A DNA stretch of 57,577 nucleotides from positions 1 to 57,577 of the forward strand of contig JAISXP010000069.1 of NCBI GenBank assembly GCA_031270465.1. Reading direction: 5' to 3'. The notes below the pieces were generated by a model. It was not told where the DNA came from and did no database searches. It worked only from the letters and a program-made list of their open reading frames with translations. Shown here one piece after another: positions 648-57,490 of this stretch. Each line of letters begins with the position of its first letter. Positions within the stretch are counted from its first letter, which is position 1. This DNA comes from Tannerella sp. (GTDB taxonomy: Bacteria; Bacteroidota; Bacteroidia; Bacteroidales; Tannerellaceae). The translations under genes were made by a program, and so were the position numbers.

Positions 648-1187
648 TCAATCTTTCACGGACGGAAGCAGAAAATCGGTGAAGCACAATGCCGCCAACG
701 CCGTGCCGTATCGTTTTTCTATTGTAATTCCTTCCGTGACAAAGTTTAAATCGCCCAAATAATATTTGCCGTACGTTTTCTGGTGCAAATCGTGTATCAC
801 GCGAATCAGGCGTGACTCCAACTCCTCGATACGGTAACGTCCGCTGACCTCGCATACCAGGCCACCAAGTTTCTCGTCAAAGTTTTCGTCCTTGTACATC
901 CACGCATACACGATTCCCGCCGACACAAACTCATCCTGATAGCCATGCGAAACAGCCATGATGGTTTTCATTTCCGAACCAAACGGAGGCAAATCAATCT
1001 CGTCCATCGTCTTCAGATGTGCCGTTGCCGGAATCACAGACGAATATGTCATGATGTTGAAATCAGCAATACCGGCATCATACAATGCCATGTGGTAAGA
1101 TCCGGCATGTTTTTCCAGATCGGATTCTCCACTCCCTTTTGCAATAAAAAAGGTATTCGGAATTAAATTCCCTACTCTCTTTACCAT
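648..1187 (-). CDS. pyruvoyl-dependent arginine decarboxylase
   Basis: This is a 179-residue PvlArgDC-family protein. The family makes agmatine and CO2 from arginine, starting polyamine synthesis or acting in acid resistance. The proenzyme cleaves itself at a Ser-Ser pair to form the pyruvoyl cofactor. Here TYSSVIP places that pair at residues 49-50, giving a short beta and a longer alpha chain. The conserved EFVSAGIVYAW helix, the GG..CEVSGRY stretch and the closing EKRYGTALAAL are also present, and length is normal. It stands alone, with no agmatine-processing gene beside it in the window. Confidence 0.88.
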   Translation of the reverse strand: MVKRVGNLIPNTFFIAKGSGESDLEKHAGSYHMALYDAGIADFNIMTYSSVIPATAHLKTMDEIDLPPFGSEMKTIMAVSHGYQDEFVSAGIVYAWMYKDENFDEKLGGLVCEVSGRYRIEELESRLIRVIHDLHQKTYGKYYLGDLNFVTEGITIEKRYGTALAALCFTDFLLPSVKD

Positions 1188-1263
1188 TTCAAAAAGTCTT
1201 TTATTCTATTAATACTAAGTTCATTCCCGTCTTGCCGTTTCATAATGTTTCTGTTCGGGGTCG

Positions 1264-1271
1264 CAAAATTA
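1264..1271 (-). promoter_or_regulatory. -7 box upstream of the arginine decarboxylase
   Basis: TAATTTTG on the minus strand fits TAnnTTTG and lies about 77 nt before the ATG at 1187. No clear TTTG -33 box stands at the usual spacing. The 210-nt gap 1188-1399 shows nothing else. Confidence 0.4.
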
Positions 1272-1399
1272 CAAACTTATTAAAGATTTTACCCTTCTCT
1301 CCTCAAAAAAAATCATATCTTTAGCTAAAATATTTTTCATTCCGGAGGTAAAATCTTCTTTCTCATACGGACAGTCTTCATAAATATCTGACAACAAAG

Positions 1400-2248
1400 C
1401 TAGAACAGATATACAAGTCCCACACCCACATTTCGCGCGCCGACAGAAGGCATAATGACCAATTGCCGGTCATCGTCGATACCGAACAGGCTGTGCCAGA
1501 CGGGAAGCATCATATAACCGATTTCGGCGCTCAGGATGCCTATCCCTGCGCCTGCCACGATGTCGCTCATCCAGTGGGCGCGGTTAATGACGCGAAGCGC
1601 TCCCGTCATCGTCGCGACTGCATATCCTCCAACACCGATCCAGGGCGACTGCTCTCTATATTCCCTGTATAAAATATGCGCCCCGGTGAATGCCACGGCC
1701 GTATGTCCCGAAGGAAAAGCATCGCTGTTCCATCCGCGGGGACGGACAACAGGGATTTGCTGCTTCATGAACGTCACCGTTCCCCACATGAACAGGTACG
1801 ACGTGGCAAGAATCAGCGTCCTGTCCCTGAAATTATGCTGCGACGCGACGCCGGGCAAGAAGTCCAGTCCGTATGCAACTGCGGCAGGCACTGCAGCGAG
1901 GTAAGAGTCGATCGGATAATGGCCGTCGATATTCAGTTCCACCTGCTCGGCCACGTACTTGTCGAATCGACGAAAGGGCGTGTCGTTGAAACGCGCCGCC
2001 GTGCCATAGGCGATAAAAAGTGCGGGAGTGATAAAACGTGTGGCGGAAAGACGTTCGACCTCGCCGGATGTCGAAGCAACAGAAGCGAACGGCTGCCTTC
2101 CTGCTAAAAAAGAACTGTGCTGCGGCAGGCGCGCCAGACTTGCGGGCAGAAGTTCGCGTTCATACAGTGATATTTGCAAAGTATCTTCTTTCGAAAAAAC
2201 CATTCCTGCAACGAGAATAAAACCTGTGATAAAAAGAATTTTTTTCAT
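1400..2248 (-). CDS. PAP2-family phosphatase, exported or membrane-anchored
   Basis: This 282-residue protein has an N-terminal hydrophobic segment (residues 2-19, signal peptide or anchor). A PAP2 acid-phosphatase core fills its C-terminal two thirds. All three signature motifs are visible: K..IPVVRPR, FPSGHT, and INRAHWMSDIVAG, whose His and Asp are the catalytic residues. Relatives act on lipid phosphates such as lipid A, undecaprenyl pyrophosphate or phosphatidylglycerol phosphate at the periplasmic face. The substrate cannot be read from sequence. The extended N-terminal region (about residues 25-110) has no recognisable domain. A second, smaller PAP2 protein follows directly upstream on the same strand. 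Confidence 0.85.
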   Translation of the reverse strand: MKKILFITGFILVAGMVFSKEDTLQISLYERELLPASLARLPQHSSFLAGRQPFASVASTSGEVERLSATRFITPALFIAYGTAARFNDTPFRRFDKYVAEQVELNIDGHYPIDSYLAAVPAAVAYGLDFLPGVASQHNFRDRTLILATSYLFMWGTVTFMKQQIPVVRPRGWNSDAFPSGHTAVAFTGAHILYREYREQSPWIGVGGYAVATMTGALRVINRAHWMSDIVAGAGIGILSAEIGYMMLPVWHSLFGIDDDRQLVIMPSVGARNVGVGLVYLF

Positions 2249-2266
2249 TACCGGGTTAAAATATTA

Positions 2267-2824
2267 TTAATGATAATGTATGGCTGCATATCCATACAGT
2301 TTGTAGACCAGCCATCCCAGCAGCGAGCCGACCAGCAGCCCCGCAACTACATCCGAAATGAAGTGAGCGCCCAGATAAATACGCGAATATCCTATCAGGA
2401 CAGCCCAAAGCAGGATGGCAACAGTGTACGCCTTTTTTCTGACCAGCAACAACGAGAGAACGGCAAAGCCGAAAGCCGTCGTCGAATGTCCGGAAATGAA
2501 ACCGTATATGCCGTTTGCGTGATAGTCATTCAGCAAAGTCACGCAATGCATGTACAAAGGATGCTCCGTAGGGCGGAAACGGGCAAAAGCAGGCTTGAAC
2601 ACATACGCAGAAACGAGCAGGCTGCACACAATGACTGTCACAAACGAAAGCGCGGTGTGAATCCATTCCGTTTTTTTCTTCCATGTGAAATACAACGGCA
2701 CGAGCAGTACCGGACACCATATCCACACACCTGCACAGCACCACATCACCATGTCCAAAAAAGGTGTATGCGAACTGTTGAGCCACAAAAACAAGTCGTG
2801 TTCATATTCCAGGAGCGTTTCCAT
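2267..2824 (-). CDS. PAP2-family integral membrane phosphatase
   Basis: A compact 185-residue membrane protein with about five hydrophobic helices. The PAP2 motifs are KPAFARFRP, FISGHST and SRIYLGAHFISD. Size and topology fit undecaprenyl-pyrophosphate or phosphatidylglycerolphosphate phosphatases of the BcrC/PgpB type, which recycle carrier lipid for peptidoglycan and O-antigen synthesis. It lies 18 nt upstream of the larger PAP2 gene and 23 nt downstream of tdh, all reading leftwards, so tdh and the two phosphatases may share a transcript. Which lipid it uses is undetermined. Confidence 0.85.
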   Translation of the reverse strand: METLLEYEHDLFLWLNSSHTPFLDMVMWCCAGVWIWCPVLLVPLYFTWKKKTEWIHTALSFVTVIVCSLLVSAYVFKPAFARFRPTEHPLYMHCVTLLNDYHANGIYGFISGHSTTAFGFAVLSLLLVRKKAYTVAILLWAVLIGYSRIYLGAHFISDVVAGLLVGSLLGWLVYKLYGYAAIHYH

Positions 2825-2847
2825 CGGCAGGCCTGCAAGTGTGTTCT

Positions 2848-3807
2848 TTACTGTTCATTCAGACTGACACGCAGTTTCGCAAGCATGTCTTTCGTCATCG
2901 CATCCAAATCGTAGCGAGGCTGCCAGTCCCATTCTTCGCGGGCACAGGTATCATCCAGCATGTCCGGCCACGACTCGGCAATCGCTTGACGCAGCGGATC
3001 GACGCGGTATTCCATCGTGAAATCGGGAACGTATTTGCGTATTTGGCTGAAAAGGCTTTCAGGATCCAAACTCATCGAAGTGACGTTGAACGCATTGCGG
3101 TGTTTCAGCCGCGACGGGTCGGCTTCCATCAGCCGGATGGCGGCGTCCAGTCCGTCGGGCATGTACATCATGTCCATGAACGTGCCTGCTGCAATCGGAC
3201 AGACGAAACGTTCTTTCCTGACGGCCGCATAAAAAATCTCGACGGCATAGTCGGTCGTCCCACCACCCGGAGGCGTAATATACGAAATCAATCCGGGGAA
3301 ACGCACCGAACGCGTATCGACCCCATATCGCCTGAAATAATAATCGCTCAGCAGTTCGCCCGTCACTTTCGTCACGCCATACATCGTACGCGGACTGCGA
3401 ATCGTATCCTGCGGTGTCCTGCATTTCGGAGCGTCTTCGCCGAAAACACCTATCGAACTGGGCGTAAACACGGCGCAATGTTTCTCGCGAGCCACTTCCA
3501 GCACGTTGAACAATCCCCCGACACCTACATTCCAGGCTAATTGCGGCTTAGCTTCCGCCACGGCCGACAGCAACGCTGCCAGATTGTATATCGTATCTAT
3601 CCCGTAGCGCGAAACCGCATCGGCAATCTGCCGTCCGTCGGTAATGTCTACCTGCACGGATGGCCCCGACGCGGCAAGTTCGCCTTTCGGCTCTGCGCCC
3701 GAAATATACCCTGCTACAATCTGCCCTCCGGCATAACGCTGCCTCAACGCCATCGTCAATTCTGAACCAATCTGGCCTGTTGAGCCGATTATCAATACAT
3801 TCTTCAT
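2848..3807 (-). CDS. tdh: L-threonine 3-dehydrogenase, SDR type
   Basis: A 319-residue extended short-chain dehydrogenase with the NAD-binding GSTGQIGSEL motif at residues 8-17 and the catalytic Tyr143/Lys147 pair in MYGVTK. The substrate-side segments FPGLISYITPPGGGTTDYA and MYMPDGLDAAI are those of SDR-type threonine dehydrogenases rather than sugar epimerases. The enzyme oxidises L-threonine to 2-amino-3-ketobutyrate. The divergent neighbour, starting 138 nt away, is kbl, the next enzyme, which strongly supports the assignment. Confidence 0.9.
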   Translation of the reverse strand: MKNVLIIGSTGQIGSELTMALRQRYAGGQIVAGYISGAEPKGELAASGPSVQVDITDGRQIADAVSRYGIDTIYNLAALLSAVAEAKPQLAWNVGVGGLFNVLEVAREKHCAVFTPSSIGVFGEDAPKCRTPQDTIRSPRTMYGVTKVTGELLSDYYFRRYGVDTRSVRFPGLISYITPPGGGTTDYAVEIFYAAVRKERFVCPIAAGTFMDMMYMPDGLDAAIRLMEADPSRLKHRNAFNVTSMSLDPESLFSQIRKYVPDFTMEYRVDPLRQAIAESWPDMLDDTCAREEWDWQPRYDLDAMTKDMLAKLRVSLNEQ

Positions 3808-3830
3808 ATTTTATTTTTGAAACACGGGCG

Positions 3831-3838
3831 CAAAGATA
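3831..3838 (-). promoter_or_regulatory. -7 box of tdh
   Basis: TATCTTTG on the minus strand, 23 nt upstream of the tdh ATG. It sits back to back with the kbl promoter, so the 138-nt tdh/kbl gap holds divergent promoters. Confidence 0.55.
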
Positions 3839-3903
3839 CGTATTAATTATCGTATCCGCGACAAATTATTTGTTATTTTCGTCCGTATTTAACCGGAATG
3901 AAT

Positions 3904-3911
3904 TATATTTG
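3904..3911 (+). promoter_or_regulatory. -7 box of kbl
   Basis: TATATTTG, 34 nt upstream of the chosen kbl ATG at 3946. An in-frame ATG at 3898 lies upstream of this box and would give a 16-residue extension of poor quality, so 3946 is the better start. Confidence 0.55.
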
Positions 3912-3945
3912 CCCCTCGAAAAAAGCAAACCTAATAATTATCATT

Positions 3946-5136
3946 ATGTACGGAAAAATAAAGTCATTTCTGGCCCGCGAACTGGCCGAAATCGAAAACA
4001 ACGGACTGTATAAAAAAGAGCGTATCATCACTACGCCGCAGAAAGCCGACATTCGGGTCAACAACAGTCAGGAAGTTTTGAACTTCTGCGCCAACAACTA
4101 TCTCGGGCTGTCGAACCATCCGCGGCTGATCGAAGCTGCCGCAAAAGCAATGTCCTCACACGGATTCGGGATGTCGTCAGTACGCTTCATCTGTGGCACG
4201 CAAGATCTTCACAAAGAGCTAGAACATGCCATATCCGACTATTTCGGGACGGAAGATACCATTCTGTATGCCGCCTGTTTCGATGCCAACGGCGGCCTGT
4301 TCGAACCGCTGCTCACGGACGAAGACGCCATCATCTCCGACGCCCTCAACCATGCATCGATAATCGACGGCATAAGGCTCTGCAAGGCTGTCCGCTATCG
4401 CTATGCCAACGCCGACATGGCCGAACTGGAGCAATGCCTGCAGAAAGCGCAGGAGCAGCGTTTTCGCATCATCGCGACGGACGGCGTTTTTTCTATGGAC
4501 GGAAACGTCGCTCCGATGGACAGGATTTGTGAACTGGCCGAAAAATACGATGCGCTGGTGATGGTCGACGAATCACATTCGGCAGGCGTCGTCGGCCCGA
4601 CGGGACATGGCGTCGCCGAGCAGTTCGGCGTATACGGTCGCATCGACATCTTCACGGGGACGCTGGGCAAATCGTTTGGAGGCGCACTGGGGGGCTTCAC
4701 TGCCGCACGGAAGGAAATCATCGACATGCTGCGTCAGCGTTCGCGGCCATACCTTTTTTCCAACTCGCTTGCACCGGCCATCGTCGGGGCGGGAATCGAA
4801 GCGTTCAGGATATTGAAGGATAGCAACGAACTGCATGACAAACTGACTGAAAACGTGGCTTACTTCCGCGACAGGATGGCTGCCGCCGGATTTGACATCA
4901 AACCCACGCAGTCGGCCATCTGTGCCGTGATGCTGTACGACGCCAAACTGTCGCAGGATTTTGCACAGTTCATGCAGGACGAAGGCATATATGTGACGGG
5001 ATTTTATTACCCCGTCGTACCCAAAGGACAGGCGCGTATCCGAGTACAATTGTCGGCCGGACACGAAAAGGCACATCTGGACAAGGCGATCGAAGCGTTT
5101 GTGAAGATTGGGAAAAAGTTGCAGGTCGTCAAATAA
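3946..5136 (+). CDS. kbl: glycine C-acetyltransferase (2-amino-3-ketobutyrate CoA ligase)
   Basis: A 396-residue fold-type I PLP enzyme of the alpha-oxoamine synthase family. It cleaves 2-amino-3-ketobutyrate with CoA to glycine and acetyl-CoA, completing threonine breakdown begun by Tdh. Visible features are NFCANNYLGLSNHP near residue 48, the VDESHSAGVVG stretch near 208-217, and TGTLGKSFGGALGG with the PLP-binding Lys242. The start matches family length and follows a good -7 box. The next gene begins on the base after its stop codon, so translation is probably coupled. Confidence 0.93.
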   Translation: MYGKIKSFLARELAEIENNGLYKKERIITTPQKADIRVNNSQEVLNFCANNYLGLSNHPRLIEAAAKAMSSHGFGMSSVRFICGTQDLHKELEHAISDYFGTEDTILYAACFDANGGLFEPLLTDEDAIISDALNHASIIDGIRLCKAVRYRYANADMAELEQCLQKAQEQRFRIIATDGVFSMDGNVAPMDRICELAEKYDALVMVDESHSAGVVGPTGHGVAEQFGVYGRIDIFTGTLGKSFGGALGGFTAARKEIIDMLRQRSRPYLFSNSLAPAIVGAGIEAFRILKDSNELHDKLTENVAYFRDRMAAAGFDIKPTQSAICAVMLYDAKLSQDFAQFMQDEGIYVTGFYYPVVPKGQARIRVQLSAGHEKAHLDKAIEAFVKIGKKLQVVK

Positions 5137-6009
5137 ATGCCGCGCAGTCCGAATTCAAGCATGCAACCCAGCAATTTTCACAGCCACTGCACTTTCTGCG
5201 ACGGACACAGCGATCCGGAAGACTTTATCGGCGCAGCGCTGTCGCAGAGATTCAGGGCCTACGGCTTTTCGTCGCACTCTCCGCTGCCGTTCGAGACAGC
5301 ATGGAACATGTCCGCCTCCGACATGCCCGCCTATCTGCACGAAATCGCGCGGCTGAAAGAAAAATACAAAGGACAGATAGAAATTTACGCAGGTCTTGAA
5401 ATCGACTATCTCGACGAGACCTGCAATGCTTCCATCCCCTACTTCCGCTCGCTGCCGCTGGACTACCGCATCGGCGCCATCCATTTTCTGCCGTGGAGGC
5501 TTCCTCTGGAAGAAGACAATATGAGTTGCATCGACGGCCGCTACGAGAGCTTCGCCGAGGCCGTCGCAAAGCATTACGGCGGCGACATACGGCTGATTAC
5601 AAAACACTATTTCGAATCGTCCATGCGAATGGTGGAAGCGGGCGGGTTCGATATCGTCGGACATCCCGACAAGATTTACATGAACGGAAGCCTCTATCCC
5701 GGTTTCGACCTCTCGGCAGACTGGTACTGCAAACCTTTCGCGGCTTTCCTCGACCTGATTGCCGAAAAGGAATTGACTGTCGAGGTCAATACAAAAAATC
5801 TGCACCGTAAAAATCAGATATATCCGCATATAAACATGTTCAGGGAACTCAGGCGGCGCAACATCCCGGTCATCGTCAATTCGGACTGCCATTTCACCGC
5901 GCTGGTGAACGACGGGCGGACGGAAGCGCTCGCCCTGCTGAAAGATGCCGGATTCCGTACGACGCGCGAACTGGCCGGAGGCGAATGGACGGACATCCCT
6001 GTCGAATAA
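5137..6009 (+). CDS. PHP-family phosphatase, histidinol-phosphatase (HisK) type
   Basis: A 290-residue PHP-domain metal hydrolase. FHSHCTFCDGHSDPEDF near the N-terminus carries the first His-x-His metal ligands. GFSSHSPLPF, the Glu of AGLEIDYL, the GHPD segment near residue 180 and the late VNSDCH complete the metal site. This arrangement is that of HisK-type histidinol phosphatases, which release histidinol from histidinol phosphate. No his genes are nearby, so another phosphate ester could be the substrate. The ATG at 5137 abuts the kbl stop; a second ATG at 5161 would also suit the family. Confidence 0.78.
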   Translation: MPRSPNSSMQPSNFHSHCTFCDGHSDPEDFIGAALSQRFRAYGFSSHSPLPFETAWNMSASDMPAYLHEIARLKEKYKGQIEIYAGLEIDYLDETCNASIPYFRSLPLDYRIGAIHFLPWRLPLEEDNMSCIDGRYESFAEAVAKHYGGDIRLITKHYFESSMRMVEAGGFDIVGHPDKIYMNGSLYPGFDLSADWYCKPFAAFLDLIAEKELTVEVNTKNLHRKNQIYPHINMFRELRRRNIPVIVNSDCHFTALVNDGRTEALALLKDAGFRTTRELAGGEWTDIPVE

Positions 6010-6045
6010 TTCAATTCTGCGCATATCTGAAAACAGACAGCAAAT

Positions 6046-6942
6046 ATGTTATCATTCAAACCCATCGATATTGAAGACAGGAAGATCATTACTTCCTGCA
6101 TATATCCGTGCAACTACATGAACTGCGATTTTTCGTTTGCGAATATATGCAGCTGGCGTTTTGTCTACAAAAGCGAATTTGTCGTAGTCGACGGTTTCCT
6201 GCTGATTCGCTTCTTTGCCGACGAAAAGCACAGAGGCTACATGTATCCCGTCGGTAGCGGCGACTTGAAACACATCGTCGGACTGCTCGAAGATGACGCC
6301 CGCACGGGAGGTTATCCGCTGAGGATTTTCGGTGTCACGCCGGACGCAAAAAGCGAACTCGAAAACTGCCTTCCCGGACAGTTTGCGTATACACCCGAGC
6401 CGGACTACTTCGACTACGTCTACCTGCGTACCGATCTGGCCTCGCTGACAGGCAAAAAATATCAGTCCAAACGCAATCACGTAAACCGGTTTAAAAAGCA
6501 GTACCGGTACGAATACCTCCCCATCGCACCCGACATCATCCCCCTGTGTATGAGTCTGGAGAGCAAGTGGTTTCAGACCAACAGCACAAAAAACGATATC
6601 GACGGACTGCGGCTCGAAAACCGCTCGATGCGTTTTGCCATGAATCATTTCAGCGATCTGGGGCTGCTGGGCGGGGCAATTGCCATCGACGGCGAAATTG
6701 TCGCCTTCACGTACGGTTCGCCTATCAACCACTGCACTTTCGGCGTGCATGTCGAAAAGGCCGACATACGGTACGACGGCGTTTTCAGCCTCATCAATCA
6801 GGAGTTTGCATCGCGCATTCCCGAGCAGTTCGTCTTCGTCAACCGCGAAGAAGATCTGGGTCTTCCCGGACTGCGGCAGGCTAAGCAGTCTTACCATCCA
6901 GCCATCCTGCTGGAAAAAAATACGGCTGTCAAAAAAACGTAA
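6046..6942 (+). CDS. DUF2156 / phosphatidylglycerol lysyltransferase-domain protein
   Basis: A 298-residue protein resembling the C-terminal aminoacyl-transferase domain of MprF-like enzymes (DUF2156, a double GNAT fold). Characteristic segments are CNYMNCDFSFANICSWR near the N-terminus, KKYQSKRNHVNRFKKQY in the middle, GLLGGAIAIDGEIVAFTYG and the final NREEDLGLPGLRQAKQSYHP. There is no membrane domain, so it is a soluble stand-alone version as is usual in Bacteroidota. The acceptor is unknown; an aminoacyl transfer to lipid or peptide is an inference from the family. The next gene, another GNAT, starts 12 nt later. Confidence 0.8.
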   Translation: MLSFKPIDIEDRKIITSCIYPCNYMNCDFSFANICSWRFVYKSEFVVVDGFLLIRFFADEKHRGYMYPVGSGDLKHIVGLLEDDARTGGYPLRIFGVTPDAKSELENCLPGQFAYTPEPDYFDYVYLRTDLASLTGKKYQSKRNHVNRFKKQYRYEYLPIAPDIIPLCMSLESKWFQTNSTKNDIDGLRLENRSMRFAMNHFSDLGLLGGAIAIDGEIVAFTYGSPINHCTFGVHVEKADIRYDGVFSLINQEFASRIPEQFVFVNREEDLGLPGLRQAKQSYHPAILLEKNTAVKKT

Positions 6943-6954
6943 CCCTGTAACCTC

Positions 6955-7884
6955 ATGAAACAGCAAATCATCGACTTGTGGAAGACCGTATTCGGCGATT
7001 CCGACGCATTCGTCAAACTCTGGTTCGACCACATATACAGGAACGAACAGACTCTGGTCGTCGAGAAGCGCGGGCGCATCGTTTCGGCGCTGCAAATCAT
7101 CCCCCGCGAGATGATTTACTTTGGCGAGCGTATCTCCGCGGCATACGTCTGCGGCGTCTGCACCCTGCCGGCCGAGCGCGGGAAAGGCTTCATGACGCAG
7201 ATGTTGCACGAGGCGGAGCGCGTCATGACAGACCGACGGTTTGCTCTCGCAACGCTTATCCCGAGCGACGGATGGCTTTTCGGCTACTACGGCCGCTTCG
7301 GCTATGCAACGACGTTCGACCTTTCCTCCGAGACACACTGCCTTCATACACAGACATTTCCTGCCGTTACCTGTCGGATTGAGCCTTCGGGACCTGTCGC
7401 TGACGATGCCCTCTACCGCTGCTACGACCTTGTGCAGTCCGCACGTCAATGCGCCATAATCCACCGCGCAAGCGACCTCGAACTCGTAAGACAGGACTGC
7501 CTGACGGACGGCGGCGACTGCTGGGCGGCGCACGTCGACGGACAGCCGGCCGGTATCGCCTTCGCCGTCCCCCGCGCGGACGGAACGGTCTTTTTCAAAG
7601 AAATAGCATGTGACGACCCTTCGTTAAGAAACGCGCTGATACAGTCCGTCATGAAGCATTACCGCGCACACACCGCCCGTGTCCGCATACCGCCCGTCAC
7701 CGCCTCGTCCGCTCCCTACGGCATGGCGCGCGTACTCGATGCAGCACGCATATACGACATCTACCTCCGCCACAATCCACCGCCCGCAACCGGCAATCCG
7801 CTACGCGCCGACATTGCCGCATGTACACAAACCCTCCTCGCTTACGACCGGCGCGCGGGATACATGAACTTGATGCTCGATTAG
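6955..7884 (+). CDS. GNAT-family N-acetyltransferase (Eis-like)
   Basis: A 309-residue protein. An N-terminal acetyl-CoA-binding GNAT fold is visible as AAYVCGVCTLPAERGKGFMTQML (residues 62-84), where the R-G-K-G-F loop binds the CoA pyrophosphate. It is followed by PSDGWLFGYYGRFGY, typical of Eis-type and related acetyltransferases. A second, degenerate GNAT-like half follows. The substrate is unknown. It is probably the last gene of the kbl/PHP/DUF2156/GNAT run, and a hairpin at 7937-7958 closes the unit against the converging barrel gene. Confidence 0.82.
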   Translation: MKQQIIDLWKTVFGDSDAFVKLWFDHIYRNEQTLVVEKRGRIVSALQIIPREMIYFGERISAAYVCGVCTLPAERGKGFMTQMLHEAERVMTDRRFALATLIPSDGWLFGYYGRFGYATTFDLSSETHCLHTQTFPAVTCRIEPSGPVADDALYRCYDLVQSARQCAIIHRASDLELVRQDCLTDGGDCWAAHVDGQPAGIAFAVPRADGTVFFKEIACDDPSLRNALIQSVMKHYRAHTARVRIPPVTASSAPYGMARVLDAARIYDIYLRHNPPPATGNPLRADIAACTQTLLAYDRRAGYMNLMLD

Positions 7885-7936
7885 ACTGCGGGCGACGAAC
7901 GGAGGCTGCCGAATGCAGGCCGGTTCATGTGCGAGC

Positions 7937-7958
7937 AAAAAATTCACTCGAATTTTTT
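7937..7958. terminator. bidirectional intrinsic terminator
   Basis: AAAAAATTC and GAATTTTTT form a 9-bp stem around a 4-nt loop between two convergent genes. It carries A and T tracts on the proper sides for termination in both directions. The rest of the gap 7885-8054 shows nothing. Confidence 0.55.
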
Positions 7959-8054
7959 CTCCCGAAACGTGCGGGGAAGAAAAAAACGCAGGTTATTTAT
8001 TTCGCATCCTTCAGCCGGCATGATGCACCCGGCGCTCCAGGCCCCATGCGTGCC

Positions 8055-8735
8055 TTACCGCAGGCGGACGAGGTATGCGACTCTCAGTGTAAGCACCTGC
8101 GCGGAAGCTTTTCCGAAGACGTCGGAGCGGCGTGTACTGTAGAAATCGCTCAGGGCGTAGTAGTACCGTCCTTCGAGGAGGAAACAGCCGATGCCGGTAC
8201 GCAGTTCCAGACCCGGCCCTCCGCCGATGCCCCATTCGAACGATTTCGTGGCGGGCATGTCGTGCTGGGCATTTATCCGCTGCGGTTCGAGGCCGTCGAG
8301 GTTCGAGGCCGTCTTTTCGTTGAGGAGGAATCCTATCTGCGGGCCGAGGTTGACGAAGAAGTTCACCCGTTCGCCGCCGAAACGTACGTGCGTGAGAAAA
8401 GGAATGTCGACATAATTCATGCGTCGGCGGTAGTAGAGGGCGGAATAGTCGTTCCCGTCGTCGTCGAAGCGTTCCTGCCATCCCTGCTGCTTGCAGTTGA
8501 TTTCTATCTGGATGCCGAGATTCTTTTCGGTAATCCACCGGACGGTCAGGCCGCCGGTATATCCCGTGTACATGCTTTGCTGTACTTTTGGCGAGAAGAC
8601 GGTGTTGGCGTAGTTCACGCCTGCCGACACGCCTGCCGACCATTCGGGACGGAAGGCTGTATTCTGCGCCGGCGTCGCAACGGACGCAAGGAGGCAGCAG
8701 CAACTCAACAGGCAGACAATGGTCGTTCGTTTCAT
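8055..8735 (-). CDS. outer-membrane beta-barrel protein (PorT-like fold)
   Basis: A 226-residue exported protein. A signal peptide (MKRTTIVCLLSCCCLLASVA, cleaved near PAQ) precedes alternating amphipathic strands such as WSAGVSAGVNYAN, GLTVRWITEKNLGIQIEI and GGPGLELRTGIGCFLLEGRYYYALSD, as expected for a small outer-membrane barrel. The frame stays open well upstream, but only the ATG at 8735 begins a signal peptide. That ATG overlaps the stop of the upstream LysM gene by 4 nt, so the two are translationally coupled and probably act together in the envelope. The specific role is unknown. Confidence 0.82.
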   Translation of the reverse strand: MKRTTIVCLLSCCCLLASVATPAQNTAFRPEWSAGVSAGVNYANTVFSPKVQQSMYTGYTGGLTVRWITEKNLGIQIEINCKQQGWQERFDDDGNDYSALYYRRRMNYVDIPFLTHVRFGGERVNFFVNLGPQIGFLLNEKTASNLDGLEPQRINAQHDMPATKSFEWGIGGGPGLELRTGIGCFLLEGRYYYALSDFYSTRRSDVFGKASAQVLTLRVAYLVRLR

Positions 8736-50437: not shown

Positions 50438-50536
50438 TTCAAGAGCCGAAGATTCGGGGTTCGTTTTTTTGAACTTTGCAGAAATCATTGCAATGCAGTT
50501 CGCTTCTTCATCGAAACCGGCACTTTATTGATATTT

Positions 50537-51637
50537 ATGAGGGCTTATTTCATACTGGTGTTACTGGCCTATATTGGTGGTAACGTGTACATTTTCGTGC
50601 GGGGATTGCAGGCCATACAGCATTTCCCGCACATTTATAAATGGTTGTGGGGCGGGCTGTTCTGGTTCTCCTTTCTGTCGTTCATACTTGTGTTTGCACT
50701 GAGAAATTCAAGAGTGGCGACAACTGCCGGGTGGCATGTTTTTTACGAATACAGTTGCAGTTGGCTTGTGATTATCCTTTACATGGGGTTGCTGCTGCTG
50801 TTTTTCGACGGATTCAGGCTTTTCAACCATTCGTTCCACTACGGTTTCGTCATATCTTTGATTCTGACTGCCTGTCTGTTATTGTATGGACATTACCGTT
50901 ATCAACATCCTGTTAACAGGATTATCAACATAGATGTCAACAAATCGCTGCCCGGCCGGACACAGTCGCTCAAGGTGGTAGCCGTAAGCGACATACATCT
51001 GGGAACAGGGACAAACAAGAAAAGATTGCAGAAATATGTGCGCCTGATTAATGCGCAGAATCCCGACATAATCCTGATTGCCGGCGATTTGATTGACAAC
51101 AGTATCACGCCTGTCCGCCGCCAGCGGATGGAGGAAGAACTGCGGCAGTTGCACGCACCCTTCGGGATTTACATGTCGCCGGGTAATCATGAATATATCA
51201 GCGGTATTGCCGAAAGCCGGGAATATATCACCGGCGCTACCGATATCCGTTTCTTGTGCGATTCGGTTGCGGTATTGCCGAACGGTATCAGGATTGTCGG
51301 GCGGGACGACGTGAGCAATCCGTCGCGAAAGGAGTTGCGGGCATTGCTGGAGGGTACAGACCGCAGCCTCCCTGTCATCGTGCTGGATCATCAGCCGTAT
51401 CAGTTGAAACAGGCGGAAGCGGAAGGCGTCGACCTCCTGTTTTGCGGGCACACGCACCACGGACAGGTATGGCCGATGTCGTGGATAACGGAACTGCTTT
51501 TCGATGTCGGTTACGGATTTGAAAAACGCGGAAATACATCCATCTACGTCTCGTCCGGTCTGTCGCTCTGGGGGCCTCCGTTCCGTATCGGCACACAAAG
51601 CGAACTGGCGGTGTTTAATATTCGTTTCAAAGACTGA
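50537..51637 (+). CDS. membrane-anchored calcineurin-like metallophosphoesterase (YkuE/YaeI type)
   Basis: A 366-residue protein with four hydrophobic segments in the first 130 residues and a soluble phosphoesterase domain. Metal-site motifs are AVSDIHLG, IAGDLIDN, SPGNHEYISG, VLDHQPYQLK and LFCGHTHHGQVWPM. Members hydrolyse phospholipid or nucleotide phosphoesters, and this protein's substrate is unknown. The ATG at 50537 is preferred over a TTG 9 nt earlier. The next gene, a paralogue with the same layout, begins 3 nt after the stop, so the pair arose by tandem duplication and is co-transcribed. Confidence 0.88.
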   Translation: MRAYFILVLLAYIGGNVYIFVRGLQAIQHFPHIYKWLWGGLFWFSFLSFILVFALRNSRVATTAGWHVFYEYSCSWLVIILYMGLLLLFFDGFRLFNHSFHYGFVISLILTACLLLYGHYRYQHPVNRIINIDVNKSLPGRTQSLKVVAVSDIHLGTGTNKKRLQKYVRLINAQNPDIILIAGDLIDNSITPVRRQRMEEELRQLHAPFGIYMSPGNHEYISGIAESREYITGATDIRFLCDSVAVLPNGIRIVGRDDVSNPSRKELRALLEGTDRSLPVIVLDHQPYQLKQAEAEGVDLLFCGHTHHGQVWPMSWITELLFDVGYGFEKRGNTSIYVSSGLSLWGPPFRIGTQSELAVFNIRFKD

Positions 51638-51639
51638 GC

Positions 51640-52770
51640 ATGAGGTTTTTTCTACATGCAATATGGGGACAGCTCTTTATCAATGCGTATATTGCATGGA
51701 GAGGATACGGTATGCTGGCATACCGGCCCTGCGTACGAAAATATTTTTTTGCCGCCCTTCTGTCCGAAATTGTATTCTACCTGACGGGTTTCTTTTTTTA
51801 CAGATTATTGCCGGAAAGAATCCTGGATGCTATTGTAATCGTTTGCAATACATGGTATATTGCGTCGATATATGTTACAACAGGACTGCTTTTGCTGCAT
51901 GTGGTGAAATGGTCGGGCAGGTTGTGGAAATGGTATCCGAAGCGACTTTTGCCGCATCTGCCGCAATACAGGTTCCGGTTGTTTGCGCTGCTTTTTGCCG
52001 TTGTGCCGCTGTTGATGCTGAAAGGGTATTACAACGCGACATATCCGGTTGTAAAACATGTGAATATACATATTCCGAAAGCTGCCGGGGGGCATGACAG
52101 CCTGACTGTGGCGCTGATGAGCGATTTGCATTTCGGCGAACGTATCGGGAAGGCTCATGCGCGGCGCTTTGTGTCGTTATGCAATGCGCAGAAGCCTGAT
52201 TTGGTAGTGATACCCGGCGATGTGATAGATTATGAATCGCATTTTGTCGTACGCGACGGTCTGGCCAGCGAACTTCGGAAGATTAATGCGCCTATGGGTG
52301 TGTACATTACGTTAGGCAATCATGAGTATCGCGCCAACAGACACGCCAAACTCGACTGGCTGAAAGAGACGGGGGCAACCGTGCTCGTCGATTCCGTGGC
52401 AATGCCCGACTCGACATTTTACCTCGTCGGCAGAGACGATGCAACGAACAGACGGAGAACATCTTTAGCTGCACTGATGCGCGATGTCGACCTGTCGAAA
52501 CCCGTCATCCTGCTCGACCATCAGCCCATGCGTCTGAACGAAGTGGTAATGAACCGCGCCGACCTGTCGCTTCACGGACATACGCATAACGGCCAGATAT
52601 GGCCTAACGTGCTTGCACTTAGGATATATTTCGAATGTTCGTATGGCTATTACCGCAAGGGCGACACACAATTCTACGTGACGTCGGGTATCGGTTTCGC
52701 CGGCCCGCCGTTTCGCATCGGCACGCGTTCCGAACTCGTCGTGCTGCATGTCACGTTCGAAAAAGAATGA
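51640..52770 (+). CDS. membrane-anchored metallophosphoesterase, paralogue of the preceding gene
   Basis: A 376-residue protein with hydrophobic segments in residues 1-130 and a C-terminal calcineurin-like domain: LMSDLHFGERIGKAHA, VIPGDVIDYE, TLGNHEYRANRHAKL, ILLDHQPMRL and LHGHTHNGQIWP. All metal ligands seen in the first copy are kept. Differences in the N-terminal membrane region exceed those in the catalytic domain. It ends the GC-balanced part of the window; the AT-rich operon begins about 180 nt downstream. Confidence 0.88.
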   Translation: MRFFLHAIWGQLFINAYIAWRGYGMLAYRPCVRKYFFAALLSEIVFYLTGFFFYRLLPERILDAIVIVCNTWYIASIYVTTGLLLLHVVKWSGRLWKWYPKRLLPHLPQYRFRLFALLFAVVPLLMLKGYYNATYPVVKHVNIHIPKAAGGHDSLTVALMSDLHFGERIGKAHARRFVSLCNAQKPDLVVIPGDVIDYESHFVVRDGLASELRKINAPMGVYITLGNHEYRANRHAKLDWLKETGATVLVDSVAMPDSTFYLVGRDDATNRRRTSLAALMRDVDLSKPVILLDHQPMRLNEVVMNRADLSLHGHTHNGQIWPNVLALRIYFECSYGYYRKGDTQFYVTSGIGFAGPPFRIGTRSELVVLHVTFEKE

Positions 52771-52946: not shown

Positions 52947-53210
52947 ATGAATTATTCGAAATATATTAAACAGACCGCAGGTGAAAAACAGTTGCTGGCA
53001 TTTGGAAACGTGCTGGTTCATTCGCCGAAACTTATTTTGCTCGACGAACCGTTTGCGGGAGTAGATGTGGAAAATTCGGAAATTCTTCGAAAGTGTATAT
53101 ACGATTTGCAAAAAAGTATTACCTTTGTAATTGTTGAACATAAGCGACAGTTGCTCGATGACATTGTAAATAAAGTTGTTGAATTGGAATTAGGAATGAT
53201 TAAAAATTAA
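52947..53210 (+). pseudogene. ABC transporter ATPase, C-terminal half only
   Basis: The 87 codons read MNYSKYIKQTAGEKQLLAFG, then SPKLILLDEPFAGVDVENSE and FVIVEHKRQLLDDI. The signature loop (QTAGEKQ for LSGGEQ), Walker B with D-loop, and the switch His are present. Walker A and the Q-loop are missing and are not found upstream in any frame. It cannot bind ATP alone. It resembles the C-terminal half of a LivG/LptB-type subunit, and a complete copy may exist beyond the window. It has a promoter-like box and is 6 nt from the next gene, so it may still be translated. Confidence 0.65.
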
Positions 53211-53216
53211 AATAAC

Positions 53217-54281
53217 ATGGCAAAGAAAATTTTTATTACGATTGGAGTGATTGCGGTAGTTGCAATCGGAGTGTTGGTTTATCTGAATAATGCAGGTAGG
53301 AAACAAGAAGTTGTAAGAATAGGTGCAATACTTCCTTTATCTGGAAATTTAGCACAGTTAGGGGAATCAGGTAGGACAGGACTTTTACTTGCTGAAGAAT
53401 ATATCAACAGCAAAAATAATAACAAAAAGATTAAGTTTCTTTTTGAAGATGGAAAGGCTAATCCAACAGCATCAATAAATGCTGCGAATAAACTAATAAC
53501 TCTTGACAAAATTGATATTGTGTTTTCAATTATCAGTGCAGTTGAATTGTCAATAGTTCCCATACAAGAGAAAGAACATTTTTTAATGTTTTCACATTCT
53601 TCACATCCGCAATTGAGTAATGTTAATGATTTGTTTTTTAGACAATCTCAGACAGTACAACAAGAATCGGATTTTATTTTGTCAAATATAGATAGTATCG
53701 CTACTTTAACTATTTGTTATATGAGCGATGATTATGGCGTTGCTTTTGAAAAAGAAATGCAAGGCAAAATCCAGCCAAATCGCATAAAATCAGTTGTTTC
53801 TTTTTTACCAACAGAATCCAATTTTGCTACGATAGCCAAAAAAGCAATAGATGCTAAATCAGATAAAATAGTGATATGTGCAGGAGGAAAGAATATAGCA
53901 GACTTTGTTAAAAAGTTAAGAGAACAAAATTATAGTGGCGAAATAATAACTACATTGGCATATATTGTATCAGGTGCAAATAAAAACACAAAAGATGTAA
54001 AAAATTTATCTATGATAGATTTCAAAAAGGTAACAGTTGATAAAGAGTTTGAGGATTTTATTCACAATTACAAAACTAAAACAGGTGAAAAAATCGGTAC
54101 AGCAGAATTGATGTTTTTCAATAGTGCGTGGATTGTTTATACAAACAGTATAAATGGTAATATGCCTCAACAAATATCTGCCGAAATAAAAAATCACACT
54201 ACCCAGAATATATTAGGTAATATTGTAACAATAACCAATACAAACGACATTTTACCGGAATTAGAAATTATAAAACAATGA
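53217..54281 (+). CDS. Liv-type (type 1) ABC transporter substrate-binding protein
   Basis: A 354-residue protein with an N-terminal membrane anchor (residues 4-24) that lacks a lipobox Cys. It then has a type 1 periplasmic-binding fold of the branched-chain amino-acid family (Peripla_BP_6): VRIGAILPLSGNLAQLGESG, GLLLAEEYIN, FEDGKANPTASINAANKLI, YMSDDYGVAFEKEM and GEIITTLAYIVSGA. Codon use is AT-rich and unlike the genes before 52.8 kb. Its stop overlaps the next start by 4 nt. The ligand is unknown; amino acids or amides are typical for the family. Confidence 0.85.
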   Translation: MAKKIFITIGVIAVVAIGVLVYLNNAGRKQEVVRIGAILPLSGNLAQLGESGRTGLLLAEEYINSKNNNKKIKFLFEDGKANPTASINAANKLITLDKIDIVFSIISAVELSIVPIQEKEHFLMFSHSSHPQLSNVNDLFFRQSQTVQQESDFILSNIDSIATLTICYMSDDYGVAFEKEMQGKIQPNRIKSVVSFLPTESNFATIAKKAIDAKSDKIVICAGGKNIADFVKKLREQNYSGEIITTLAYIVSGANKNTKDVKNLSMIDFKKVTVDKEFEDFIHNYKTKTGEKIGTAELMFFNSAWIVYTNSINGNMPQQISAEIKNHTTQNILGNIVTITNTNDILPELEIIKQ

Positions 54282-55324
54282 AAAAGGAAATACGAGATAT
54301 TTTCTTCTCTTTTGTCAAAGAGAACGATTTTCAGATAATAGAACGAAGTAATTTAGTCTCCAAATACTTCAAAGATGAATTTAATTTAAGCGGGGGACAT
54401 AGTCATCTTGTCCCTGCTATTTTAAATTCCGAAAAAGTTAATAAAGATGATATTGCTGTTATTGATTTATGTGTTAGAAAAGCTGATGCACAAGTTATAG
54501 GAATTAGCAATACTCATCTTTTACTGTTTGAAATGGGCGTTTGGGGTAGTTTTGGTTACATAGAAGACAAAAAACAGGAAGAATTCCGTCAATTATCCTT
54601 ATTGTTAGAATTTCTCTATCAATGCGGAATAAGTAAAGAATTTTTATATTTTACAATTTGTGCAGGTGGACAGTATTTAGATAAGTTAATTTTACCTGAT
54701 AATGACTCTTACGAAATTCTATCTTCTTTGGGCATAGAATCAAGCCATATATTCAAAACCGCAGGGCGAAGAAATTTTATGCTAAGTCGTGGCATAGATA
54801 GATTGGCAGGCTACAATATTGAGGTTTTTATCAAGAAAAATGACCAGTTTATTGAGATTGCATCATCTAATATATATCAATATGTAAATAAACTCACATA
54901 TTTAGAAAAAACAGTAAATGCAGGAATAGGTTGTGGAGTAGGGATTGAAAGGGTAGAATTTATTGCAAAAGGTTATAATAGTGTATATGATTTGGATTTC
55001 TTCAAAGCAATAAAAGAAAAAGTCAGAAATCTATTGCACATATCTAATGATTCTGTCAATATTATTGCGGATAAAATATACCGAAGTATTGAATTATCTA
55101 AAACTCTTATTTTTTTGATAAATGACAATCAAGATTTGGATAAATCTGCACAAGGTAAAACAATGAAAAGTTATTTGGCTAAAATAATATCTGAACTCAA
55201 TTTTTTATCTATTCCTATTGATATATTTATCGAAATATTAAAATCTGAAATGACAAAAATATATGATGATTATCAAATTAGAGAGGATGTTTTTAATATT
55301 TTACTTAGTGAAATTTGCAGTTAA
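54278..55324 (+). CDS. stand-alone alanyl-tRNA-synthetase-like protein
   Basis: A 348-residue protein resembling the N-terminal part of AlaRS. Residues 5-30 (EIRDIFFSFVKENDFQIIER) match the AlaRS start. CVRKADAQVIGISNTHLLLF and FEMGVWGSFGY (65-94) align with motif 2 (CVRAGGKHNDLE..RHHTFFEMLGNFSFG). NAGIGCGVGIERVEF and YNSVYDLDFFKAI (214-245) align with motif 3. Residues 260-345 resemble the following helical region. Editing and C-Ala domains are absent, and the RHH of motif 2 is NTH. It overlaps its neighbours in a Liv-type operon, so an aminoacyl-activating or amino-acid-sensing role is possible. tRNA charging is doubtful. Confidence 0.7.
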   Translation: MKKEIRDIFFSFVKENDFQIIERSNLVSKYFKDEFNLSGGHSHLVPAILNSEKVNKDDIAVIDLCVRKADAQVIGISNTHLLLFEMGVWGSFGYIEDKKQEEFRQLSLLLEFLYQCGISKEFLYFTICAGGQYLDKLILPDNDSYEILSSLGIESSHIFKTAGRRNFMLSRGIDRLAGYNIEVFIKKNDQFIEIASSNIYQYVNKLTYLEKTVNAGIGCGVGIERVEFIAKGYNSVYDLDFFKAIKEKVRNLLHISNDSVNIIADKIYRSIELSKTLIFLINDNQDLDKSAQGKTMKSYLAKIISELNFLSIPIDIFIEILKSEMTKIYDDYQIREDVFNILLSEICS

Positions 55325-55330
55325 ACTATT

Positions 55331-56269
55331 ATGAAGAGATTCTTATATTCTATCATGTTGCCATTTGCATTATTGACGCAAGTTCTGATTTCTTTGTTTC
55401 ATAAAGATAATCAAAGACTCTGGGTTGCAAAGATAATTTTCTACATCAAAAAAGAATATCAAAAAAACAATTTAATTTTATTGGGTTATTCACTATTTCC
55501 TTTTTTGCTTATTTCCATAGCGTATTTTATTTGTGATGTTGTAGACATATTGCCTTGCCGTTTTTGGACAGGAGATACTTTTTATCCTTTTGTATTGGCA
55601 ATAGGCACCTTAGTAATAACAATGATAATTGCAATTAACATCAATCCCAAAAAAATAGAAAATGGCGAACAATTTATAAAATGCTTAATAGAACATATTT
55701 TTTATCTCAAATATATAAAAGATAAAAAACAAACATCAGAAAAATTGAAATTGTACCTCATTACCCCAAACATAAATATGGGGGCTGGAATAGGCGTTGA
55801 TAAAAATTTCTCAAAAATAATCAAGGAGCATAAATGTATTGAATTTCATTTTATATGTTTATCTATAGAAAAAGAAAAAATAACCACTTATAATAGTGTT
55901 AATAACGCAGATAAAGCAAATTTTTTTGCGAAAGCTAATGATAAAAATAAGATGTTATTGTTTTTATATAAACGCTATGACACGACAGATGCAAAAAAAT
56001 TAGATGAAATAATAACAGAACTTGATGCAATATTAAGTAATACAAATGTAATAATTCATAATTGTTCCGTAAACCTTGAGGAACAACAAATTAGTGGATA
56101 TTTATCTGATTTTGAATGTGTTTTTGGTAATTATTCTAATATAAACAAACAAGAAGGAGATGTGAATTTTAGAGGAGAAGTAATTACAGCAGAAGAATTT
56201 ATAAAGATTATTAAAGAGCAAATGCTCCAACATTTTATCCAATCAGAAGACGATGCAACTGCTGTTTAA
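55331..56269 (+). CDS. unknown membrane protein with C-terminal soluble domain
   Basis: A 312-residue protein I do not recognise. Three hydrophobic segments lie at about residues 4-22, 46-70 and 84-105, followed by a soluble alpha/beta domain of about 180 residues: LKLYLITPNINMGAGIGVDK, FHFICLSIEKEKI, KMLLFLYKRYDTTDAKKLDE and DVNFRGEVITAEEFIKIIKE. The alternation of hydrophobic strands and helices suggests a Rossmann-like fold, but no catalytic motif stands out. It begins 6 nt after the AlaRS-like gene and ends 17 nt inside the permease gene, so it is part of the same translationally coupled operon. Confidence 0.6.
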   Translation: MKRFLYSIMLPFALLTQVLISLFHKDNQRLWVAKIIFYIKKEYQKNNLILLGYSLFPFLLISIAYFICDVVDILPCRFWTGDTFYPFVLAIGTLVITMIIAININPKKIENGEQFIKCLIEHIFYLKYIKDKKQTSEKLKLYLITPNINMGAGIGVDKNFSKIIKEHKCIEFHFICLSIEKEKITTYNSVNNADKANFFAKANDKNKMLLFLYKRYDTTDAKKLDEIITELDAILSNTNVIIHNCSVNLEEQQISGYLSDFECVFGNYSNINKQEGDVNFRGEVITAEEFIKIIKEQMLQHFIQSEDDATAV

Positions 56270-57125
56270 CATATTAATTTCATTTAATATTTGTGGTTTG
56301 GTTGCATTATCTACTATTGTAATGTATTATCCAACTAAATTCTTTCATATCGCCCATGCCATAACCCTAACCTTTTCCGCCTACTTCACCTACTTTTTCG
56401 CAATACAACTCCAATGTCCCGTGTGGCTATCCATTCCATTAGCAATAGTGTGCGCCACAGTTATAGGAATGTTATCCGAAATAGCATTATATAAGCCGTT
56501 AAGAAAACGCAATGCTTCGCCAATGATACTGATGATAGCTTCTTTGGGACTTTATACCGTCCTACAAAATGTAATTTCAATGCTTTGGGACGACGATACT
56601 AAAAGCGTGCGTACCGGCGAAATCAAAGTAGGACATGAGTTTTTCGGAGCATATATTACCGATATTCAAATTATCACGATTGTGGCTTGCGTGGCGCTGT
56701 TTGTGGCTTGCGTGTTGCTGATGAAATACAGCCGTATCGGGCGGAATATCCGTGCGGTGGCAAGCAATCCCGAATTGAGTAATGTTGTTGGAATTCATTC
56801 CGACAGGGTTATTTTGTGGGCGTTTGGTATCGGTTCGGCATTGGCGGCGGTTGCCGGAATTTTAATTGCTTTCGATACGGATATGACGCCAACGATGGGT
56901 TTTAACTGGTTACTCTATGGCGTGGTGGCAATGATTATCGGCGGCGTGGGCAGCAATTGGGGACTGGTCGGCGGTGCATTATTACTGGCTACGGCGCAAC
57001 ATCTAGCGGCATACTATATCGGCAGTCAGTGGATGGATGCTGTGGCGTACATTATTCTTATTTTATTTCTGATAGCCAAACCGCTCGGCTTTAGCGGCAA
57101 ACGATTGAAAAAAATAGAGATATGA
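56253..57125 (+). CDS. branched-chain amino-acid ABC transporter permease, LivH type
   Basis: A 290-residue inner-membrane permease with about eight hydrophobic helices. Diagnostic segments are YYPTKFFHIAHAITLTFSAY, LYKPLRKRNASPMILMIASL, the cytoplasmic coupling loop YSRIGRNIRAVASNPELSNV, GIGSALAAVAGILIAFDTDM and YGVVAMIIGGVGSNWGLVGG. The start overlaps the unknown membrane gene by 17 nt. Base composition rises again within this gene. A LivM partner and complete ATPases should follow but would lie beyond the repeats and the window edge, or the transporter is incomplete. Confidence 0.88.
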   Translation: MQLLFNILISFNICGLVALSTIVMYYPTKFFHIAHAITLTFSAYFTYFFAIQLQCPVWLSIPLAIVCATVIGMLSEIALYKPLRKRNASPMILMIASLGLYTVLQNVISMLWDDDTKSVRTGEIKVGHEFFGAYITDIQIITIVACVALFVACVLLMKYSRIGRNIRAVASNPELSNVVGIHSDRVILWAFGIGSALAAVAGILIAFDTDMTPTMGFNWLLYGVVAMIIGGVGSNWGLVGGALLLATAQHLAAYYIGSQWMDAVAYIILILFLIAKPLGFSGKRLKKIEI

Positions 57126-57136
57126 GAATAAATATT

Positions 57137-57490
57137 AACCACAGAGAACATTTTAATAACCACAGAGAACATTTTAATAACCACAGAGAACACAGAGTAC
57201 ACAGAGGAAAAATAAACTCTGTACTCTCCGTGTCCTCTGTGGTTAAAAATAATATTAACCACAGAGAACACAGAGTACACAGAGGAAAAATAAACTCTGT
57301 GCTCTCCGTGTCCTCTGTGGTTAAAAATAATATTAACCACAGAGAGCACAGAGGACACAGAGGAAAAACAAACTCTGTGCTTTCCGTGTCCTCTGTGGTT
57401 AAAAATAATATTAACCACAGAGAGCACAGAGGACACAGAGGAAAAATAAACTCTGTGCTCTCCGTGTCCTCTGTGGTTAAAAACAATGTC
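57137..57490. repeat. four tandem 78-bp foldback repeats plus two 21-bp partial units
   Basis: Units starting AACC recur at 57179, 57257, 57335 and 57413, exactly 78 bp apart. They are preceded by two truncated 21-bp units at 57137 and 57158. Each unit is itself an imperfect inverted repeat: a left arm of CACAGAG motifs, a short AT centre and a right arm ending CCTCTGTGGTTAA, so each can fold into a hairpin of about 30 bp. Because 78 is a multiple of three, long reading frames open on both strands across the array; these are not genes. Copies differ by a few bases. Confidence 0.95.

Follow-up and report, generated by a model that had tools for sequence, protein, structure and literature searches.

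The last few kilobases of a 57,577-nucleotide contig from Tannerella sp. (JAISXP010000069.1, assembly GCA_031270465.1; this whole stretch is called the window below) carry a gene for a protein that resembles the catalytic part of alanyl-tRNA synthetase (AlaRS), directly behind the gene for the substrate-binding protein (SBP) of a Liv-type ATP-binding cassette (ABC) transporter. Our comparisons place this pair within a larger pattern. Across a subfamily of Liv operons the transporter core is constant, and the SBP and its neighbouring genes are exchanged, a genomic pattern that we consider well supported. A sequence-only reading of the window had proposed an AlaRS module coupled to a Liv-type SBP. 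That part stands, the further suggestion that the protein senses or activates the imported amino acid is conjecture, and the picture has widened to one in which this module is a single option among many cargoes of a modular operon family. The family looks like an undescribed modular system. Literature searches aimed at this type of operon or at transporter-linked synthetases gave no paper on such an operon among the matches listed from the open-licence PMC literature.

A constant transporter core with exchanged binding proteins and cargo

Transporters of the Liv/HAAT type include LivJHMGF and the urea system UrtABCDE. The modular set examined here comprises 19 loci from 17 genomes in the two phyla sampled (Bacteroidota and Fibrobacterota), chosen by LivH similarity. 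With a LivH probe, 3 of 167 Fibrobacterota genomes matched at 67% identity or more, including Candidatus Fibrimonas termitidis (11 matched at 1e-30), as did 4 of 393 genomes from the window's order at 52% or more, the window's own included (5 matched at 1e-40). A LivH profile recovered 11 of 395 Bacteroidota genomes at 1e-70, again including the window's. Narrower probe searches returned 2 of 41 genomes in the window's genus at 1e-15 (its own, and G583 at 26% identity) and 1 of 5 in the family of G966 (G966 itself). LivH matches below 40% identity (G417, G556, G557, G553, G552, G429, G558, G555, G942), together with G583, were counted as Liv operons of the ordinary or distant kind. This set holds 10 loci (L034, L035 and L078-L085), of which six (L078-L081, L083, L084) served as the control for SBP identity and eight as the control for LivH.

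In all 19 loci, the SBP gene has a non-transporter open reading frame (ORF) of at least 90 amino acids next to it, either within the operon or alongside it. Two layouts occur: livG-livF-SBP-cargo-livH-livM, and SBP and cargo placed before livH-(livM)-livG-livF. Among the Fibrimonas locus (L004) and those of genomes G446 and G409, median identities are 83% for LivG, 77% for LivF and 84% for LivM, and their SBPs share 20-29%. For pairs whose LivF proteins are at least 60% identical, the median SBP identity is 28.7% (20 pairs), as opposed to 70.0% in control Liv operons (15 pairs from 6 loci), although the pairs are not independent of one another. LivH is itself divided: in the same three loci, identity is 57% over residues 1-110 but 84% over residues 156-290, and the corresponding values are 47% and 83% in six Bacteroidota loci, 46% and 67% in all 15 loci, and 34% and 34% in the eight controls. 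Since LivH similarity decided which loci were picked, these LivH values depend in part on that selection; SBP played no part in it.

Base composition follows the same division. In every one of the 15 loci tested, the mean guanine-plus-cytosine (GC) content of the LivG, LivF and LivM genes is higher than that of the cargo (the average gap is 8.6 points, but it is only about 3 points in L041 and L060), and in 12 of the 15 it is also higher than that of the SBP gene. Loci L057, L064 and L066 stand outside the GC and identity tests, as their SBP, LivH or LivF genes are interrupted or run off the contig; the window, which lacks LivG/F/M, stands outside the GC and LivF tests, and L067 outside the LivH medians for all loci. 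In both the window and L004, GC content changes in a step close to the 5' end of livH, which fits a junction at this place. Cassette recombination between livF and livH would leave such a pattern. The conserved core consists of LivG, LivF, LivM and the C-terminal half of LivH, and the exchangeable, usually AT-rich cassette holds a dedicated SBP with at least one cargo gene, often including a membrane protein.

How sharply this subfamily is bounded is uncertain. Non-transporter genes also lie beside the SBP in 4 of the 10 distant operons, which speaks against a sharp boundary: a kinase and a TPR-like gene in L084, a GNAT-like gene (by eye) in L035, and a radical SAM gene with a gene for a large protein in L082 and L085.

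The window locus and its intact counterpart

The following features make up the window locus.

52950..53210, + strand: C-terminal fragment of livF (ABC ATPase); Walker B is present, and the first ~140 amino acids with Walker A are gone
53217..54281, + strand: Liv-type SBP of 354 amino acids (Peripla_BP_6, 1.1e-23)
54278..55324, + strand: AlaRS-like catalytic-core protein of 348 amino acids (profile searches, alignments, VIA-align)
55331..56269, + strand: membrane protein with a C-terminal soluble domain (3 hydrophobic segments by hydropathy)
56253..57125, + strand: LivH permease (BPD_transp_2, 1.3e-43)
57178..57487, no strand: 78-bp repeat in four tandem copies close to the contig end, at the place expected for livM

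The same neighbours are found in an intact operon of another phylum, an arrangement for which the earlier reading had proposed a genome survey. Candidatus Fibrimonas termitidis (Fibrobacterota), whose name suggests a termite-gut origin, carries livG-livF-SBP-AlaRS-like-TM-livH-livM (TM, the transmembrane protein) with successive junctions of -7, -14, -4, -4, 7 and 1 nt, so that overlaps of 14, 4 and 4 nt surround the SBP, AlaRS-like and TM genes. The 4-nt overlap of the AlaRS-like and SBP genes that had been read from the window is real and recurs in L004. Between the two copies, protein identity is 79% for the SBP (17-24% to the SBPs of 14 other loci), 78-79% for the AlaRS-like protein, 83% for LivH and 39% for the membrane protein. 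The ratios of nonsynonymous to synonymous substitution (dN/dS) are ~0.10, ~0.10, ~0.03 and 0.42 in the same order, with the caution that these NG86 ratios are rough at dS values of 1.3-3.1. By eye, the N-terminus of the window SBP has a hydrophobic stretch with no Cys there.

The window copy is less complete than that of Fibrimonas. Its DNA matches the intact Fibrimonas livF only from 52980 (L004 8726) onward, and the Pfam family ABC_tran covers only 30 amino acids of the fragment, below cutoff. With livG absent, the full Liv set of SBP, two permeases and two ATPases is reduced to SBP, LivH and the LivF fragment before the contig ends at 57577, which is 452 nt past livH and behind repeats. A LivM query returned nothing from the window's genome assembly at E <= 1, an empty answer that says little since the search had no positive control, and a LivG query returned 5 ATPases at 28-32% identity. 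The window copy may be a remnant. The repeats between 57136 and 57487 have 21- and 78-bp units in tandem; the 78-bp unit is partly an inverted repeat (by eye) and is found nowhere else in the window.

At the livF junction GC content drops from ~50% to ~28%, and in livH it is ~26% over the first 100 nt and then 39-54% over most of the remainder. The AT-rich cassette most likely arrived in this genome by horizontal transfer. An assembly chimera or contamination at the contig end could also produce such a compositional break, an end behind repeats, and a gene that is not found at E <= 1e-10 in the other 99 of 100 relatives searched, many of whose genomes are incomplete. However, equally low GC is seen inside the intact Fibrimonas operon, so composition alone is no proof of a chimera, and we regard this explanation as very improbable.

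A further possibility is that the operon is an insertion site, with unrelated hitch-hikers as cargo and a decaying remnant in the window. The shortened livF, the absence of livG and the livM that was not found in the assembly would be expected on this account. Some inserts also resemble plain mobile genes (for example, Bro-N between livH and livM in G446), and the extra genes in four distant operons point the same way. Yet the overlaps are tight, the SBP is exchanged along with the cargo, dN/dS is low, and an all-against-all comparison revealed the same cargo classes recurring beside the SBP in distant loci. Given these observations, we judge an insertion hotspot improbable.

The AlaRS-like protein

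By sequence and fold comparison, the product of 54278-55324 is the AlaRS catalytic core with the first helical part, as had been proposed from the window alone; profile searches, alignment and a second look at the fold with VIA-align agree on this. An AlaRS-type class II catalytic core with motifs 2 and 3 is present. The match to the alaS profile is confined to positions 1-342 of 847, and the editing and C-Ala domains are absent, again as first described. We reject recent truncation of an ordinary alaS gene: the core shares 19-28% identity with AlaRS, the hosts' own AlaRS proteins match it at no more than 32% in short stretches, and both hosts have a separate full-length alaS frame (874 amino acids in the window host, 883 in Fibrimonas). 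The dN/dS of ~0.10 between copies likewise speaks against a recent remnant.

We aligned the active site of the window copy with relatives from E. coli, the host, Fibrimonas, Exiguobacterium and Streptomyces. The motif-2 arginine (R67), the next histidine (H80), FEM and the GxGxER of motif 3 (R225) are retained, and the two arginines are kept in both copies; the sequence-only reading had asked whether the ATP contacts of motifs 2 and 3 are kept. In the EIWN of AlaRS, W is replaced by A and N by S. When 10 AlaRS relatives from viral contigs were used to define 61 invariant columns, 26 are retained in both copies (including R67, E224 and R225) and 31 are lost in both (including D to G218, three Trp and Arg residues of the tRNA-side helices). 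The tRNA acceptor recognition region, comprising the basic helix and later residues, is not retained: E. coli RGYVLRRIIRRA aligns to QGKTMKSYLAKII, and nothing of the protein extends beyond the counterpart of E. coli residue 365. Given the replaced tRNA-side Arg and this early stop, charging of tRNA-Ala is unlikely. Judged by its residues, the protein could plausibly still bind ATP.

The position of Asp235 in E. coli AlaRS is G218 in the window copy and also Gly in the Fibrimonas copy. According to PMC12143591, Asp235 binds the amino group of alanine. Its loss argues against plain L-alanine chemistry, and the acid that the protein would activate is probably a different one. The same paper describes activation by AlaRS of lactate, an acid with no amino group, which makes activation without the Asp contact conceivable, if only as a lead.

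The family is sparsely distributed in our searches. Peptide patterns located 1 locus in an 84,980-species collection (Fibrimonas), by a method that reaches close relatives only. Protein searches returned 1 of 395 Bacteroidota genomes at E <= 1e-15 (the window's own), 1 of 167 Fibrobacterota genomes at 1e-10 (Fibrimonas) and 1 of the 100 relatives at E <= 1e-10 (its own), and a single-protein query had no match in viral contigs. Plasmid and phage collections gave 19 and 9 matching records at 20-26% identity; the 3 of these 28 that we inspected hold a 394-amino-acid AlaRS-related protein, a 595-amino-acid AlaRS and E. coli alaS. The first lies on a Streptomyces plasmid (L014, 7977-9161) as a stand-alone 'alanine--tRNA ligase-related protein' near type I-E cas genes. 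The second, on an Exiguobacterium plasmid (L015, 1-9005), has genes for ATP-grasp, kinase, MFS and S66 peptidase proteins clustered around it, which may be an antibiotic or self-resistance cluster.

Profile searches found no family match for the membrane protein at 55331..56269. By hydropathy the Fibrimonas counterpart has 2 hydrophobic segments, and domain alignment indicates a tandem duplication of its C-terminal soluble domain. A PLD-like nature and homology to membrane partners in other loci, both suspected by eye, were unsupported: hhalign gave the 3-sequence domain alignment 0.1-0.4% probability against 4 other cargo proteins, at low power (Neff 1.8), and no PDB sequence matched the profile of that domain.

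The cargo of the modular loci

Cargo was classed by Pfam, NCBIfam and PADLOC, and several cargo proteins match no family. The classes and their loci are as follows.

AlaRS-like: window, L004
SerRS (seryl-tRNA synthetase) type-2-like core: L057
Radical SAM, with or without B12 or SPASM domains: L032/L036, L033 (after livM), L056, L060, L061, L063, L064, L067
Methyltransferases: Methyltransf_33 in L041, L065; others in L032, L059, L061 (below cutoff)
Aminotransferase: L058
Prenyl synthase and M28 peptidase: L042
RelA/SpoT: L043, L066
GGDEF: L062
TIR: L056, L065
bSEFIR: L066
Caspase: L065
DUF4062 with a P-loop region: L057, after livM
AIPR/AbiU: L061, upstream of livG
SLATT: L064, upstream of the SBP gene

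A cargo protein with at least 2 hydrophobic segments (simple hydropathy) occurs in 14 of the 19 loci. By our own sorting of family matches, biosynthetic or amino-acid-acting enzyme types occur in 16 of the 19, and signalling or effector types in 8, the latter counting DUF4062, AIPR and SLATT genes beside the operon. Locus L057 has another class II synthetase core, independent of the AlaRS-like one, with the SBP on one side and a protein with two transmembrane segments on the other. This SerRS-like core matches PDB 3w3s at 8e-22 and the amino acid--[acyl-carrier-protein] ligase model NF005479 at 4.3e-14, which is below cutoff.

Possible functions

The reading that we favour, and hold tentatively, is that the AlaRS-like protein acts as an adenylating ligase and in this way produces or alters what its partner SBP binds. 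With its class II motif arginines retained, it would adenylate a small amino or carboxylic acid, though not plain L-alanine, independently of tRNA, and hand it to a non-tRNA acceptor; the product would be the small ligand that the SBP binds. The neighbour-encoded membrane partner may anchor or regulate it. That an independent synthetase core sits in the same position in L057 suggests that such cores have a job here. According to PMC9437257, synthetase cores that lack tRNA domains either serve as regulators or have carrier proteins, other proteins or small molecules as their acylation targets, and together with the recurrence of such cores this favours an adenylating ligase.

Several points weigh against this ligase proposal. 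No carrier protein was recognised beside either synthetase-like gene among ORFs of at least 80 amino acids (window) or at least 90 (L004, L057). The membrane partners of the AlaRS-like and SerRS-like genes have no homology detectable by hhalign, a comparison of low power. The AlaRS-like family is known from two genomes only, the transporter core in the window is incomplete, and RelA/SpoT, GGDEF, TIR and caspase cargo fits poorly with simple ligand biosynthesis. Catalysis, substrate, acceptor, the role of the membrane partner and the link to the SBP ligand are, moreover, predictions.

This last group of cargo raises the possibility of conflict or signalling systems, in which SBP-LivHM would be a receptor that senses an external cue and fires the variable cargo as effectors or messenger enzymes; the AlaRS-like protein would then consume ATP or make an aminoacyl nucleotide. 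PADLOC models matched 6 of 10 proteins at 0.001, these 10 having been chosen from the cargo as the likeliest to match. The matches include spbK TIR (L056), caspase (L065), PDC-S33 RelA/SpoT (L043, L066) and bSEFIR (L066), and an AbiU match lies just upstream of livG in L061. SLATT (L064) and ThsB_TIR (L065) genes lie upstream of the SBP gene, L062 has a GGDEF protein, and the membrane partner evolves quickly, as its dN/dS indicates. However, the AlaRS-like and TM proteins of the window and L004 matched none of these anti-phage defence models at E <= 1, the window SBP reached only 0.017, the SerRS-like core had no match at 0.001, and biosynthetic-type enzymes are in twice as many loci as signalling or effector types. 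On balance we consider a conflict function doubtful, with an appreciable chance of being correct.

We give a somewhat smaller chance to the idea that the loci are private systems for small-molecule communication or self-recognition, and think it rather unlikely. Each cassette would encode signal-making enzymes and a matching receptor, and the constant Liv core would take up or relay the signal, which would be derived from an amino acid or peptide. The AlaRS- and SerRS-like adenylating ligases, radical-SAM enzymes, histidine-type methyltransferases, prenyl synthase and aminotransferase would be the signal makers, and a cassette swap by recombination at livF and at livH would alter the signalling dialect of the cell.

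Finally, the AlaRS-like protein might be a regulatory pseudo-synthetase like HisZ, which would catalyse nothing but would bind ATP or a ligand and control the transporter or its partner. Retention of the motif-2 and motif-3 arginines and of GxGxER in both copies argues otherwise, and we think this unlikely.

If the favoured model is correct, a receptor and its companion enzymes swapped as a unit on a constant importer would be a new way of diversifying bacterial sensing or making. Each cassette names an enzyme and a probable receptor, and would thereby offer a readable link from unknown small molecules to dedicated binding proteins. With the two synthetase-like cargoes, one could test directly whether the making of transporter-linked signals has recruited synthetase cores.

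Comparison with known systems

The intact Fibrimonas locus resembles Liv/HAAT transporters in having SBP, LivH, LivM, LivG and LivF; the modular loci differ in exchanging SBP and cargo around a fixed core, with the cargo inside the operon. By itself, the AlaRS-like protein would belong to a known kind, the synthetase paralogue that works outside translation; what looks new is the modular operon family. It shares with the AlaRS catalytic domain the fold, the motif order and the motif-2 and motif-3 arginines. Unlike AlaRS, it has only 348 amino acids and is without the editing and C-Ala domains, the amino-group Asp, the W and N of EIWN and the tRNA-side Arg.

Among synthetase relatives covered in the available text of PMC9437257, the amino acid:[carrier protein] ligases are likewise class II cores without a tRNA-binding part, but they are SerRS-derived; the window protein is AlaRS-derived by sequence and transporter-linked. 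HisZ and PoxA similarly reuse a synthetase core outside translation. They derive from HisRS and LysRS, in contrast to the AlaRS-type window protein, and an SBP partner is not mentioned for either in those parts of the source. Variable-effector conflict systems, as described in the sections available from PMC7159879, also combine constant parts with many alternative effectors, including TIR, caspase, SLATT and radical SAM. The constant part here is instead an import-type ABC transporter with SBP, and in those sections a PBP domain is named only as one alternative domain.

Additional observations on individual loci

Several loci contain further genes or rearrangements. In the G446 operon (L032), the Bro-N domain gene between livH and livM lies at 7399-8247 (6e-10). 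The same locus encodes tandem cargo proteins of 712 and 775 amino acids (939-5401) that are 47% identical and have N-terminal transmembrane helices; their C-terminal part is methyltransferase-like by eye, with a Pfam match of only 0.034 for the first protein. In L057 (8070-10277), the SBP frame is in two pieces with a transposase-like ORF (by eye) of 348 amino acids between them. An AbiEi/AbiEii-like toxin-antitoxin ORF pair (by eye) stands directly before livH in L064 (8791-12012) and L065 (9799-12296); in L064 a partial livH precedes or follows the pair opposite a full one, which looks like an insertion accompanied by duplication. The prenyl synthase of L042 (3280-4353) best matches the family 2 encapsulin cargo prenyl transferase model (5e-28, below cutoff).

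Among the distant operons, the Ser/Thr kinase and TPR-like gene (by eye) of L084 occupy 5044-6676 between SBP and livH and are AT-richer (39-40% GC) than the operon at 59% GC. In L082 (1-3862) and L085 (4871-9000) the last genes of the operon encode SBP, a radical SAM protein and a product of at least 876-910 amino acids. These large proteins match no Pfam family at 0.05 and have a common SHNIGSHVL motif (by eye). In the window itself, just before the island (50528-52770), are two tandem metallophosphoesterase-like genes whose products have N-terminal hydrophobic segments (by eye; Pfam on the second only).
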